Origin: Deltaproteobacteria bacterium Ga0077539 | Lineage (GTDB): Bacteria > Myxococcota_A > Polyangia > Polyangiales > Ga0077539 | Reading direction: 5' to 3' | Assembly (NCBI GenBank): GCA_001465015.1 | Contig: LNEO01000246.1 | Span: forward strand, 124,001-188,000 | Length of the DNA: 64,000 nucleotides | Shown: one piece after another, positions 146 to 39,166 of the stretch | How the letters are laid out: the number at the start of each line of letters is the position of its first letter | How positions within the stretch are numbered: position 1 is the stretch's first letter | Made by a program: the position numbers and the translations under genes | The notes under the pieces: generated by a model | Told to the model about the DNA's origin: nothing | Database searches by the model: none | The model's input: the letters and a program-made list of their open reading frames with translations, nothing else

Positions 146-2269
146 ATGTGGGGTGACCGACGCTCGGCGCGCGTGCTGGACGCGGGCGGCGCGCTGCTCG
201 AGGGACGGACCCTCGTCGACGCTCGGGCGACGCTCGAACAATTCGGGGCGGTGCACGTAAAGCGCACGGGGATCGCGGACCTCGCGGGGGCACGAGAGGC
301 GCTCGAGGGGCTGGGGTTTGGCGAAGCAGAGCGCTTCGTGCTCGGCGGACGGACGAGCGCGTCGTGGCAGAACAAGTGGGTCGAGCCGGGGCTGCGACGG
401 CTCGACTTCTATCCGCCCGACCTGTGGCTTCTGCCCAACAACGAGGTGCAGTACCAGCGCTGCTCTCCGCGGTGGGTGCTCTTCTACTGCCATCGCGCGC
501 CCATGGTGGGAGGCAGGACCTTCGTTCACAGCGCGGACGAAGTGCTCCGCAGCCTGCGTCGAGACGGCGCGATGGGCACGGCGCTCGCGGACAAGATCGT
601 CCGCAAGGGACTGATGATCGAAACGGGATTTCTCGATCGAAACGACCCTCGCAAGGCAGAGAACTACTTTCAGTCGTGGCAAGAGCGCTTTCAGACCGAC
701 GACCCGGACGCAGCCCTCGCGCGCGCTCGCGCGGCGCGAGACGACTACGATCAGTGCTGGTTTCGCGAAGAAGAGCTCCTCGGAGAGCACGGCGTGAAGC
801 TCCGCACGCTCATGACCAGGATCACGCTGACGGCCTTGTTCGATGACGAGCGCGACGGCGCGCGCTACCTGCGATTTCCCCGCCTGGCGCTCGATGCGCC
901 GTGCGCGAAGAACGGGTATCGACGCTTTCCGCTCGGCGACGGCGAAGAGCTCGACCCGCGCGAAGCGTCCCTGCTGCTTCGGGTCTATGACGAGACGCGA
1001 GAGGGCGTCGAATGGACCGACGGCGACCTCGTGCTCTTCGACAACCTGCGCTACGGACACTCTCGCGAGAGCTTCGAGGGCGAGCGCGAGGTGTACGTCG
1101 CGATGGCCGGCGAGCTCTGGGACCCGCGCGAAAAGAGACCCGAGCGAACACAGCGCGCGCCGTCGCACGCCGCCGAGCGAGCGCGCTTCGCCCCGGGACC
1201 GTCGGGCGCTCGTTACGCGCTCAGCGCGCAGAGCACCGACCGCGAGACGCGCCTCGCAGCGCGGACGTTCGACTGCCGTGGCGCGATCGACGACGAGACC
1301 GCCGCGACGATCCGCGAGGAGTTTCGCAAGCACGGCGCGCTTCACCTCCGTCGGACGGGGCTCGGCGCGGACGACGCCGCGGCCCTCGATGAGCGGACGC
1401 TCTCGCTGCTCGGGTTCGGCGGCGAGCACACGTTTTCATGGGGCGGGATGAACAGCGGGCGGACGACGCGCAAGGCGCTCTCGCGCGAGCTGCGCGCGAC
1501 CGACGAGTACCCCAGTCACTTGTGGCTCCTGCCCCACAACGAGGTGCTCTACCAGCGCACGATGCCGTCGCGGCTGCTCTTCTACTCGCCGCGCGCCTGC
1601 GAAATCACCCAGGGAGGACGCACCTTCGTGCACTCGGCGCGCGAGCTCGAGCGGTGGCTCCTCACCGAGGGACGCCGCGGGCGAGCGCTCGTCTCGCGGC
1701 TGCGCGCGGTGGGCCAGCGCATCGAGATGGGCTTCCTCGACGAGCGCCACCCGGCCAAGCGCAAGAACTACTTTCGCTCGTGGCAAGACCGATTCGAGAC
1801 CGACTCGCGCTCGGTGGCCGAAGAGCGCTGCCGCGCCAGCGCACACCAGTTCGACGAGTGCTGGTGGAAGGAAGAAGCCTCGATCGACGGAGAAGCGCGC
1901 TTCACGTTGATGACCCGAGTGACCGTTCCGGGCTTCTATCGAGAGCCCGAGACCGGCGAAGAGTGGCTCTTCTTTCCGAGGATCTCGCTCGATCCACCGG
2001 CCATCGAAAACGGCCACCGCCGCTATCCATGGGGCGACGGAAGCGAGCTGTCGGACGACGAGGTCACGCTGCTGTTGCACGGGTTTCTCGCGACGCGAGA
2101 GGGCGTGCACTACGAGGCCGGCGACGTGCTCATCGTGGACAACGTCCGCTTCGGCCACTCGCGAGAGTCCTTCGACGGGCCGCGCTCGATCGGCGTCGCG
2201 ATGGCAGGATCGTTCTCGACCACGCACATGCTCGCTTCTTCGAGCGCCGCGCAGGGAGGCCCTACGTGA
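146..2269 (+). CDS. tandem-domain TauD/TfdA-type Fe(II)/2-oxoglutarate dioxygenase
   Basis: Two homologous TauD/TfdA-like halves lie in one polypeptide of about 707 residues. Both carry the blocks LWLLP-x-NEV, GGRTFVHSA, NYF-x-SWQ-RF and GHSRESF. Such enzymes use a His-x-Asp/Glu...His triad to bind iron and oxidise small molecules with 2-oxoglutarate. The second half keeps the triad: H464-N-E466 and H671. In the first half the proximal His is Asn (N98-N-E100), with the distal H305 kept, so that half may be inactive, altered or structural. The frame is open to a TTG at 80 and a GTG at 107; I chose the ATG at 146 because the repeat homology begins just after it. The stop overlaps the start of the radical SAM gene (TGATG), so the two are coupled. 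Substrate unknown. Secondary metabolism or peptide modification is an inference from context only. Confidence 0.8.
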   Translation: MWGDRRSARVLDAGGALLEGRTLVDARATLEQFGAVHVKRTGIADLAGAREALEGLGFGEAERFVLGGRTSASWQNKWVEPGLRRLDFYPPDLWLLPNNEVQYQRCSPRWVLFYCHRAPMVGGRTFVHSADEVLRSLRRDGAMGTALADKIVRKGLMIETGFLDRNDPRKAENYFQSWQERFQTDDPDAALARARAARDDYDQCWFREEELLGEHGVKLRTLMTRITLTALFDDERDGARYLRFPRLALDAPCAKNGYRRFPLGDGEELDPREASLLLRVYDETREGVEWTDGDLVLFDNLRYGHSRESFEGEREVYVAMAGELWDPREKRPERTQRAPSHAAERARFAPGPSGARYALSAQSTDRETRLAARTFDCRGAIDDETAATIREEFRKHGALHLRRTGLGADDAAALDERTLSLLGFGGEHTFSWGGMNSGRTTRKALSRELRATDEYPSHLWLLPHNEVLYQRTMPSRLLFYSPRACEITQGGRTFVHSARELERWLLTEGRRGRALVSRLRAVGQRIEMGFLDERHPAKRKNYFRSWQDRFETDSRSVAEERCRASAHQFDECWWKEEASIDGEARFTLMTRVTVPGFYREPETGEEWLFFPRISLDPPAIENGHRRYPWGDGSELSDDEVTLLLHGFLATREGVHYEAGDVLIVDNVRFGHSRESFDGPRSIGVAMAGSFSTTHMLASSSAAQGGPT

Positions 2270-3402
2270 TGGCGGCACGAGTCAGCGCCATGCCGCTCGC
2301 GAGCGAAGAGCGCTTTCGCCCCAATCAGTTTCGGCACGCCGCGTCGATCACGACGCCCGGCGCGTATCGAGACGGACGGTGGCACACCTTCGAGCCCAAA
2401 GCCCCCGTCGAGCGCACGCTGCTCGGCCGCGTCTTTCGTCTACGCCCGGGGCTGACCTTTACGCCCTACGCCAACCCCACGGCGTGCAACGCGCACTGCT
2501 CGTTCTGCTCCGAAGAGCTCCTGCGCATCGACGCCGATCGGCTCACGGCGAAGCGCACCATCGTCGACTACGACCGATACTTCGCAGCGCTCGACCGCGC
2601 CTGGCGCGAGCTCGCGGGCTTCACGATGGGCCTCTCTCTCAGCGGACTCGAGGCTACGTCCGAGCCCGAGTGGCTCTTGCGATTGATCGACTTGATGAGC
2701 GCGCACCCCGAGCTCTTCGCCGAGCGCGTGCTCTACAGCAACGGCTCCGGCCTCGCGACGGACCGGCGGCTGGTCACGGCTCTCGGACGCGGTCGCTTCG
2801 ATCGCGTCGAGCTCTCTCGCGCCCACTTCGACGAGAAGCGCAATCACAGGATCATGCGCTTCGACCTCGCGCAGCCAATCCGACGGCGAGCGGTCTTCGA
2901 AGAGACCGTCGGAGCGCTGCGCGAGTCGGGTCTCGAGGTTCGCCTCGTGTGCATCCTCAATGACGAAGGGGTCTCGACGATCGACGAGGTCGAGCGCTTC
3001 CTCGACGACGCCGCGCGGCTCGGCGTCGAGCGCGTCGTGTTTCGCGAGCTGAGCGCGCTCGGCGAGATCTACCGCGAAAACCGCGAGACCCGATGGATCG
3101 CCAGGCACAGGGCCTCCGTTCGCGCGCTGATGGAGCGCGTGCTGCCGACGGAGCGCGGCGCGGCCGAAGTCGAAAACGTGTGCCGCGATGGCTGGGCGCT
3201 CGAGGGCGTGACGGCGGGCTATTACTATTACAACGAGGTGTATCGCCGCGGCGCGATCGAGGTGGTGCTCGAAGGGTCGAGCTACGTCGCCCACCGAGAC
3301 GCGGTCGAGTCCGGCGTGCTGCAGAAGCTCGTGTTTCACTCGAGCATGGAGCTCTGCGGCGATTGGGTTCCCAACGCGCAGGTGATCGGCTGCTATGGCT
3401 GA
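2269..3402 (+). CDS. radical SAM enzyme
   Basis: A 377-residue protein with a CxxxCxxC cluster motif (C73, C77, C80, in CNAHCSFC), preceded by a beta-strand-like TFTPYANPTA segment and followed by a glycine motif region (LSLSGLEATSEPEW). This is the [4Fe-4S]/SAM binding arrangement of the radical SAM superfamily. The C-terminal part has only two further cysteines of note (ENVCRDGW and MELCGDW), too few for a typical SPASM domain, but one auxiliary cluster cannot be excluded. The ATG at 2269 overlaps the stop of the dioxygenase, and its own 3' end overlaps the next gene by 8 bases. The three products therefore very likely work in one pathway. I do not recognise the subfamily or substrate. Confidence 0.85.
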   Translation: MAARVSAMPLASEERFRPNQFRHAASITTPGAYRDGRWHTFEPKAPVERTLLGRVFRLRPGLTFTPYANPTACNAHCSFCSEELLRIDADRLTAKRTIVDYDRYFAALDRAWRELAGFTMGLSLSGLEATSEPEWLLRLIDLMSAHPELFAERVLYSNGSGLATDRRLVTALGRGRFDRVELSRAHFDEKRNHRIMRFDLAQPIRRRAVFEETVGALRESGLEVRLVCILNDEGVSTIDEVERFLDDAARLGVERVVFRELSALGEIYRENRETRWIARHRASVRALMERVLPTERGAAEVENVCRDGWALEGVTAGYYYYNEVYRRGAIEVVLEGSSYVAHRDAVESGVLQKLVFHSSMELCGDWVPNAQVIGCYG

Positions 3403-3913
3403 TCCGTTCGACCTGCTTCGCGCGCTCGCGGCCCTGGGCGTCCCCTTCGCGCTCTATGGAACGTCGGGGCTCGCGCTCTTGCACCCGCACGTCCGCCGCG
3501 CGTTGCCCGACGCCGAGCGGGACCTCGACATCGTGCTCGTCCCTGGGATCGAACACCTGCGAGCCGTCGTCCGATTCGCCGAAGCCCACAGTGCCGCGGT
3601 GACGTGCTGGGGGACGCCCTTCGATCACTCGTGGACCGAGCGAGAGCTCGCGGGCAAGTACTATGTTCGCGCGGTGTTTTCTGGGCCCGAATGGGAGACC
3701 CAGCTCGACGTGACCTTCGAGTGCGACTGGCTCGATTCGCGCGAAGCGATCGCGCGAGCGACGGTCATCGAGGGCGTCCCCGTGCTCTGCGAAGAGGACC
3801 TCTGGTTCTCGAAGCTCACCAAGAACGCAGAGGGCGGACAGAAGCTCGCCGCGCGGCTCGCGCTGACGATCCCAGCGGACGCGTTGGCGAGGCTCGCGTC
3901 GATCCGCCCGTGA
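3395..3913 (+). CDS. nucleotidyltransferase-like protein
   Basis: A 172-residue protein with the layout of minimal nucleotidyltransferases: GTSGLA at residues 22-27 (the GS motif position), RDLDIVL with D43 and D45 as candidate metal ligands, and a third acidic strand in QLDVTF. It overlaps the radical SAM gene by 8 bases and is the third member of the coupled operon. It may add a nucleotide to the pathway substrate or be a degenerate regulator. It is not paired with a HEPN protein, which argues against a MNT/HEPN toxin-antitoxin unit. Assignment rests on motif spacing only. Confidence 0.6.
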   Translation: MADPFDLLRALAALGVPFALYGTSGLALLHPHVRRALPDAERDLDIVLVPGIEHLRAVVRFAEAHSAAVTCWGTPFDHSWTERELAGKYYVRAVFSGPEWETQLDVTFECDWLDSREAIARATVIEGVPVLCEEDLWFSKLTKNAEGGQKLAARLALTIPADALARLASIRP

Positions 3914-4333: not shown

Positions 4334-4744
4334 ATGAACATCACGCGCACGATCCTCTTTGTGCAGTCGCTCGCCCTGCTCGGAGCCGGATGCCGCAGCG
4401 GTCGCCCGACGATGCCTCAGCGAACCAGCGAGGACAGCGGGGTCATCGAGGACACCGGCGTCGCGACAGAGCCCGAAGACAGCGGCGTCGCGCTCGTAGA
4501 CACTGGCGTCGACACCATGGGGCTGCGCAGCGACCTGTGTCCCGAGGCTCAGCCGCAAGAGAGAGCGCCGTGTGTCGAGCGCAAGTACTGCATCTACCCG
4601 CAAGGCGCGATGCAAGGGACGTCCTGTCGCTGTCTGCTCGGCGACGAAGCGCGGCAGCAAAACCAAGCATCCAACGAGTGGCGCTGCGGGCCCTATCAGT
4701 TCGTGGGCGTCGGACCGCTCGCGCCGCCCGAGCTCGACGGCTGA
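4334..4744 (+). CDS. small secreted lipoprotein
   Basis: A protein of about 136 residues. I chose the ATG at 4334 because it opens a type II signal peptide: basic-polar start, hydrophobic ILFVQSLALL, lipobox LGAGC. A low-complexity linker with repeated DSG/DTG/TGV units follows. The C-terminal half has six cysteines (DLCPE, APCVERKYC, TSCRC, WRCG), so a small disulfide-bonded domain outside the cytoplasm is likely. This layout is common in Polyangia exported proteins. Function unknown. Confidence 0.6.
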   Translation: MNITRTILFVQSLALLGAGCRSGRPTMPQRTSEDSGVIEDTGVATEPEDSGVALVDTGVDTMGLRSDLCPEAQPQERAPCVERKYCIYPQGAMQGTSCRCLLGDEARQQNQASNEWRCGPYQFVGVGPLAPPELDG

Positions 4745-39056: not shown

Positions 39057-39166
39057 CGCTTGATGCTCAGCATCATCCCGCTTGATGCTCAGCATCATCC
39101 CGCTTGATGCTCAGCATCATCCCGCTTGATGCTCAGCATCATCCCGCTTGATGCTCAGCATCATCG
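39057..39166. repeat. five tandem 22-bp palindromic units
   Basis: Five contiguous 22-base units (starts at 39057, 39079, 39101, 39123, 39145) are identical except the last base of the last unit. Each holds a perfect 15-base dyad, TGATGCTCAGCATCA (7+1+7), flanked by CGCT and TCC. The period is two helical turns, so all dyads face the same side. The array sits between the convergent 3' ends of the zinc-ribbon gene and glnA. It may be a protein-binding array, a bidirectional terminator or a VNTR. Confidence 0.9.

Follow-up and report, generated by a model that had tools for sequence, protein, structure and literature searches.

A radical SAM-nucleotidyltransferase gene pair joined by a tandem oxygenase with an altered first domain forms a conserved, putatively biosynthetic cassette in Myxococcota

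In other systems, tRNA and proteins are modified by radical S-adenosylmethionine (SAM) enzymes as well as by 2-oxoglutarate (2OG) oxygenases, and the two may co-occur in pathways for ribosomally synthesized and post-translationally modified peptides (RiPPs). The radical SAM enzymes MoaA and viperin both use nucleotides. The nucleotidyltransferase MenT1 adds nucleotides at tRNA acceptor ends (PMC11375011). We analyzed a locus of Deltaproteobacteria bacterium Ga0077539 in which three genes bring such enzymes together: gene A, encoding a tandem TauD/clavaminate-synthase-like protein, gene B, encoding a radical SAM enzyme, and gene C, encoding a minimal nucleotidyltransferase. The locus lies at the left end of a 64,000-nucleotide stretch of contig LNEO01000246.1 (C246:124001-188000, hereafter the window) from a G+C-rich genome (9.7 Mb) whose relatives are Myxococcota. 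No relevant paper on the A-B-C enzyme combination was found in the open literature searched, in agreement with a first-pass annotation of this DNA, to which no pathway combining these enzymes was known; the individual families are established, and their combination is undescribed in that literature.

The three genes follow each other on the forward strand, with A at 107 (or 146)-2269, B at 2269-3402 and C at 3395-3913, and overlap at both junctions as first described: the stop codon of A and the start codon of B share the sequence TGATG at 2269, and the start of C (3395) precedes the end of B (3402), giving an 8-base overlap. By scanning genome contigs with short peptide patterns, which detect close relatives only, we located nine further loci carrying B, all in metagenome-assembled genomes of Myxococcota. 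A, B and C are found in the same order at eight of these nine, so that with the window the trio is present in nine Myxococcota species, among which B proteins share 58-83% identity. Each of these nine trio loci has an overlap at the A/B and at the B/C junction, in most cases of 4 bases (ATGA or GTGA type), and this recurrence indicates that the overlaps are not due to chance. Conserved order across genomes had been set beforehand as the test that could refute a coupled operon, and the genes proved to be neighbors in all nine species. Full-length A was detected in only 3 of 377 Myxococcota genomes, exactly those with a close B and a strong C match. The gene trees share most of their splits (5/6 for A and B, 4/6 for A and C, 4/6 for B and C), and dN/dS (the ratio of nonsynonymous to synonymous substitution rates) is 0.17-0.34 for all parts, corresponding to purifying selection. 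The tenth locus, L010, carries B alone. At 3956-4173 of L010 we also observed an array of the clustered regularly interspaced short palindromic repeats (CRISPR) type, with four repeats at a 61-base spacing, which ends about 180 bases before the lone B.

Two more distant occurrences reveal the internal structure of the set. On a mobilisable plasmid of Hymenobacter swuensis, a relative of B (47% identity over 94%) overlaps the C gene behind it by 4 bases, and A is absent. In G140, a divergent genome of the Myxococcota, a B protein of 32% identity is closely followed by C (profile E 1.3e-10). A was not found at the G140 pair, neither in the 0.2 kb of contig remaining upstream nor elsewhere in the stretch examined. 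Because both hold B and C without A, the B-C pair is, as judged from gene content, the core of the system and spans two phyla, and A has been added upstream of it, being seen in the close Myxococcota group alone. Outside Myxococcota, the distribution of B-C measured here is a lower bound. G140 additionally holds another B copy, truncated to 180 amino acids (L084, G140:C271, reverse strand 126-668).

Between distant species, the genes surrounding the trio show no relationship; they code for a histidine kinase, a pectinacetylesterase, a gluconolactonase-like protein, RecG, an arginase and others. The window shares its flanking genes only with L009, from the same genus, and, in the case of two of them, with L011. 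It had been suggested that the operon might continue to the left of the window and that a precursor peptide or substrate gene might be found there. Neither expectation held: over the 18 kb examined upstream of the window (L018), the next gene left of A is divergently oriented and no precursor peptide or further cassette gene was seen. No conserved small open reading frame (ORF) was called beside the trio in two congeners, a comparison in which peptides shorter than 40 amino acids were not systematically searched; no peptidase-transporter gene was seen, and there were no defence genes beside the cassette in the neighbors scanned. Since the flanks differ between species, the cassette is by all genomic indications a self-contained, patchily distributed unit without leftward continuation.

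The identification of B as a radical SAM enzyme was borne out. Its Pfam radical SAM match is weak (20.2 bits, under the cut-off of 29.5), but the cluster motif C73xxxC77xxC80 is invariant in all ten loci and in Hymenobacter and is accompanied by a partial TIM (triose-phosphate isomerase) barrel in a model that matches MoaA and viperin. This AlphaFold2 model (predicted local distance difference test, pLDDT, 80, weaker near the cluster loop) aligned with MoaA at Z 18.0 over 270 residues, with viperin (Z 15.9) among the best matches and SuiB and SkfB also among its structural neighbors. An invariant SGLEA stands where GGEP would be expected, and the C-terminus carries a conserved YYYYNE...KLVFHS...CGDW pattern. 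B could not be placed in any of the families that its fold evokes: no MoaA model matched it and the cysteines of a C-terminal second iron-sulfur cluster are lacking, and the viperin NCBIfam model NF038283 scored 15.5 bits against a cut-off of 180. No auxiliary-cluster cysteine motif of the SPASM/twitch type was found after the barrel, where the single near-invariant cysteine is C363. PADLOC returned a weak pVip match (18.5 bits, 2.7e-4), and a PDB sequence search gave weak matches only. We conclude that B, as modeled, is a separate radical SAM subfamily with a MoaA/viperin-like fold. Because the two closest folds belong to enzymes using nucleotides, the substrate of B is quite possibly nucleotide-like, which we take as a hint only.

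C has no match in Pfam or curated families, no curated family names either B or C, and a PDB sequence search with C returned chance matches only. Its nucleotidyltransferase-like nature, already proposed, nevertheless emerged consistently from an AlphaFold2 model (pLDDT 93.2) and its structural comparison, which over the whole length retrieved MenT1 (Z 13.2), ANT(2'')-Ia (Z 11.7) and LnuA (Z 10.6). The motif residues are G22-T23, D43xD45, D105 and K140, and C thus shows the G-[ST], the DxD, the third Asp and the fold (Z up to 13.2) of a minimal nucleotidyltransferase. G22, D43xD45 and D105 are kept in 11 of 11 C sequences, Hymenobacter and G140 included; residue 23 is S or T in all except L017, and K140 is conserved in 9 of 11. 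The key residues of MenT1 are T39, D41, D43, K137 and D152, with the phosphoacceptor Thr located two residues ahead of the DxD (PMC11375011). Of these, the DxD pair is present in C and the Lys in most C sequences, but this Thr is not conserved, and for this reason C is not to be classed as a MenT toxin. C is small and its C-terminus is variable.

Gene A comprises two TauD domains (Pfam TauD 2.8e-22, three matching stretches), and its profile matched At3g21360 (PDB 1y0z) at 1.3e-12, both domains being clavaminate-synthase-like. The first-pass annotation had placed the start of A at ATG 146, giving 707 amino acids; GTG 107, giving 720, is probably the true start, since conservation among relatives extends ahead of 146 in an alignment judged by eye. 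Domain 2 (1247-2266, forward strand) has the canonical H464-N465-E466 ... H671 (window 1535-1543 and 2156-2158), which completes the HxD/E...H metal triad, and neither its HNE nor its distal His varies among the 9 loci. Domain 1 (146-1126, forward strand) has the oxygenase fold, but N98-N99-E100 (window 437-445) replaces HxE, so that the first iron-binding His is substituted by Asn and the triad is incomplete, while the Glu of NNE, the distal H305 and the Arg that follows it are retained. NNE is present in domain 1 of all 8 loci covering that domain, and HxE in 13 of 13 other Myxococcota TauD relatives with the motif aligned, for which reason NNE is most likely the derived state. Between the window and the same-genus L009, dN/dS is 0.27 for domain 1 and 0.285 for domain 2, which argues for a retained, altered domain and not a decaying one; we infer a non-catalytic or altered-metal role for it. 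Of the tandem 2OG dioxygenase announced for A, the two TauD domains stand, and the catalytic competence of the first, which lacks a metal ligand, is doubtful. Likewise, of the two oxidative chemistries attributed to the locus, that of domain 2 is backed by a complete triad, whereas domain 1 lacks one and radical SAM chemistry is not necessarily oxidative. A scored 32.2 bits with the clavaminate synthase Cs1 model (NF043003), far from the cut-off of 450, and, as to whether the three might be ordinary housekeeping enzymes, none of A, B and C reaches the curated cut-off of a housekeeping family.

Relatives of B also occur with other partners. A sister family in other Myxococcota (B-prime, L034-L042) shares 31-35% identity with B across both the barrel and the C-terminal extension and is matched by MoaA models at 31-46 bits. 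Its operons consist of an AMP-forming ligase, a small radical SAM protein without SPASM and the B-like radical SAM protein, all overlapping (for instance L034 9259-12344 and L038 7137-10287), and at some loci the ligase is fused to a radical SAM protein. In contrast to B, B-prime has GGEP, and its partners are the ligase and a second radical SAM enzyme, not A or C. A match to B on an Embleya plasmid is a distant radical SAM protein whose neighbor genes carry no annotation. Viral contigs searched with the B profile gave no relative, and annotated phages hold distant ones. In Dulem virus 40 (L064 4081-6234) the pair of small and B-like radical SAM genes known from the sister operons precedes an acetyltransferase-like gene, and the large pEa_SNUABM phages of Erwinia amylovora (about 264 kb; e.g. 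L065 7043-8182) encode a B-like radical SAM protein with no annotation beyond "hypothetical".

Taken together, these are coupled genes that, by their order and phylogeny, are co-inherited, with catalytic motifs intact in B, C and domain 2 of A. The reading that we favor, and to which we give about an even chance, is that A-B-C is a self-contained cassette making or tailoring a small molecule by means of nucleotidyl transfer. B would carry out a 5'-deoxyadenosyl-radical rearrangement or a C-H functionalization of a small substrate, domain 2 of A would, in Myxococcota, hydroxylate or desaturate the scaffold handled by B, domain 1 would serve substrate binding or dimerization rather than catalysis, and C would attach a nucleoside monophosphate, either to a hydroxyl group of this scaffold or to whatever the product acts on. 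The small biosynthetic or modification system suggested by the first-pass annotation survives in that the set is conserved; its leftward continuation does not, and it has to be recast as a B-C core, with A absent from two lineages. A more specific proposal is that of a new biosynthetic or modification pathway in which a radical SAM-nucleotidyltransferase core is extended, in Myxococcota, by a fused oxygenase pair whose domain 1, conserved with its altered iron site, would be indispensable in some non-canonical way (through a changed metal chemistry, by gating the substrate or as a scaffold), yielding a nucleotidylylated metabolite of an undescribed kind; we consider this version tentative and well short of even. 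Several points weigh against a small-molecule cassette. No substrate, product or transporter is known for it. The fold of C is common to ANT-like and MenT-like enzymes and hence does not discriminate between a small-molecule and an RNA acceptor. With B-C occurring without A, the genomes compared imply that the core reaction does not require A, and the lone B of L010 suggests that C is perhaps dispensable too, or that this contig is misassembled. Finally, the chemical steps above are given in a proposed order.

Were C to act on RNA in the manner of MenT1, its nearest structure, A and B could make or mature a modification of tRNA or protein, as enzymes of both their classes do elsewhere and as the activity of MenT1 at tRNA ends would suggest. 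The absence of a conserved phosphoacceptor Thr, the small size and variable C-terminus of C and the lack of a visible RNA-binding domain in any of the three proteins speak against macromolecule modification, and a patchy distribution is ill-suited to a housekeeping function; we regard it as unlikely. The same patchiness, the B-C pair on a mobilisable plasmid, the CRISPR array adjoining one lone B and the distant B relatives of phages would fit an antiviral or mobile-element-linked module, for example a viperin-like maker of modified nucleotides with a nucleotidyltransferase partner, and the proximity of B to viperin in fold and its weak pVip match point in this direction. However, the viperin family score is far under its cut-off, MoaA is the closer fold, the scanned neighbors of the cassette include no defence genes, and distant B relatives adjoin AMP-ligases in a biosynthesis-like setting, making an antiviral role more improbable still.

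RiPP maturation, with a precursor peptide encoded elsewhere, would account for a radical SAM and a 2OG enzyme side by side and for SuiB and SkfB among the structural neighbors of B, but it agrees poorly with flanks that vary by species and include no conserved small ORF called in the two congeners, with the missing SPASM auxiliary-cluster cysteines and with the lack of any visible peptidase-transporter gene, and we hold it to be quite improbable. High-GC genomes are dense and overlapping genes are common in them, so that adjacency of functionally unrelated genes might in principle be a coincidence. Order and overlap are kept in nine species despite different flanks, and the B-C pair is retained even beyond the phylum; coincidence has a negligible probability and we consider it refuted by the conserved gene order.

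Directly 5' of GTG 107, the window carries an imperfect palindrome, TAGTTGCAAAGCGCTACAAACTA (77-99, no strand assigned), mostly kept in the same-genus locus L009 only; it is a possible operator or promoter element, resembling by eye a MarR-like operator. Elsewhere, a 22-base unit, CGCTTGATGCTCAGCATCATCC, forms five perfect tandem copies at 39057-39165, and a short repeat-like stretch at 4429-4515, inside the ORF 4334-4744, has 72-85% matches at several other sites of the genome.

A compact, self-contained unit of this kind lends itself to heterologous expression and to the search for its product. The conserved NNE domain beside an intact copy constitutes a natural test of what becomes of a 2OG-oxygenase fold after metal-ligand loss, and B, together with its sister family, suggests a wider, uncharacterized radical SAM group with swapped partners in bacteria and phages.

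Compared with described systems, A shares the sequence family, and hence the fold, of TauD-TfdA/clavaminate-synthase-like oxygenases such as At3g21360, and its domain 2 shares their HxE...H; it differs from At3g21360-type oxygenases in consisting of two fused domains and in the substitution of the first His by Asn in domain 1 of every member covering it. B resembles MoaA (GTP 3',8-cyclase), its best structural match, in the N-terminal CxxxCxxC, but is only 13% identical to it, lacks the C-terminal cluster cysteines and has SGLEA for GGEP. With viperin and prokaryotic viperins it has in common a barrel and a C-terminal extension without auxiliary cluster, at an identity of about 16% and with no nucleotide kinase adjoining it. 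C shares with ANT(2'')-Ia, LnuA and MenT1 the whole-length fold, the DxD and the third Asp at 12-19% identity, and its partners are an oxygenase and a radical SAM enzyme rather than an antitoxin.

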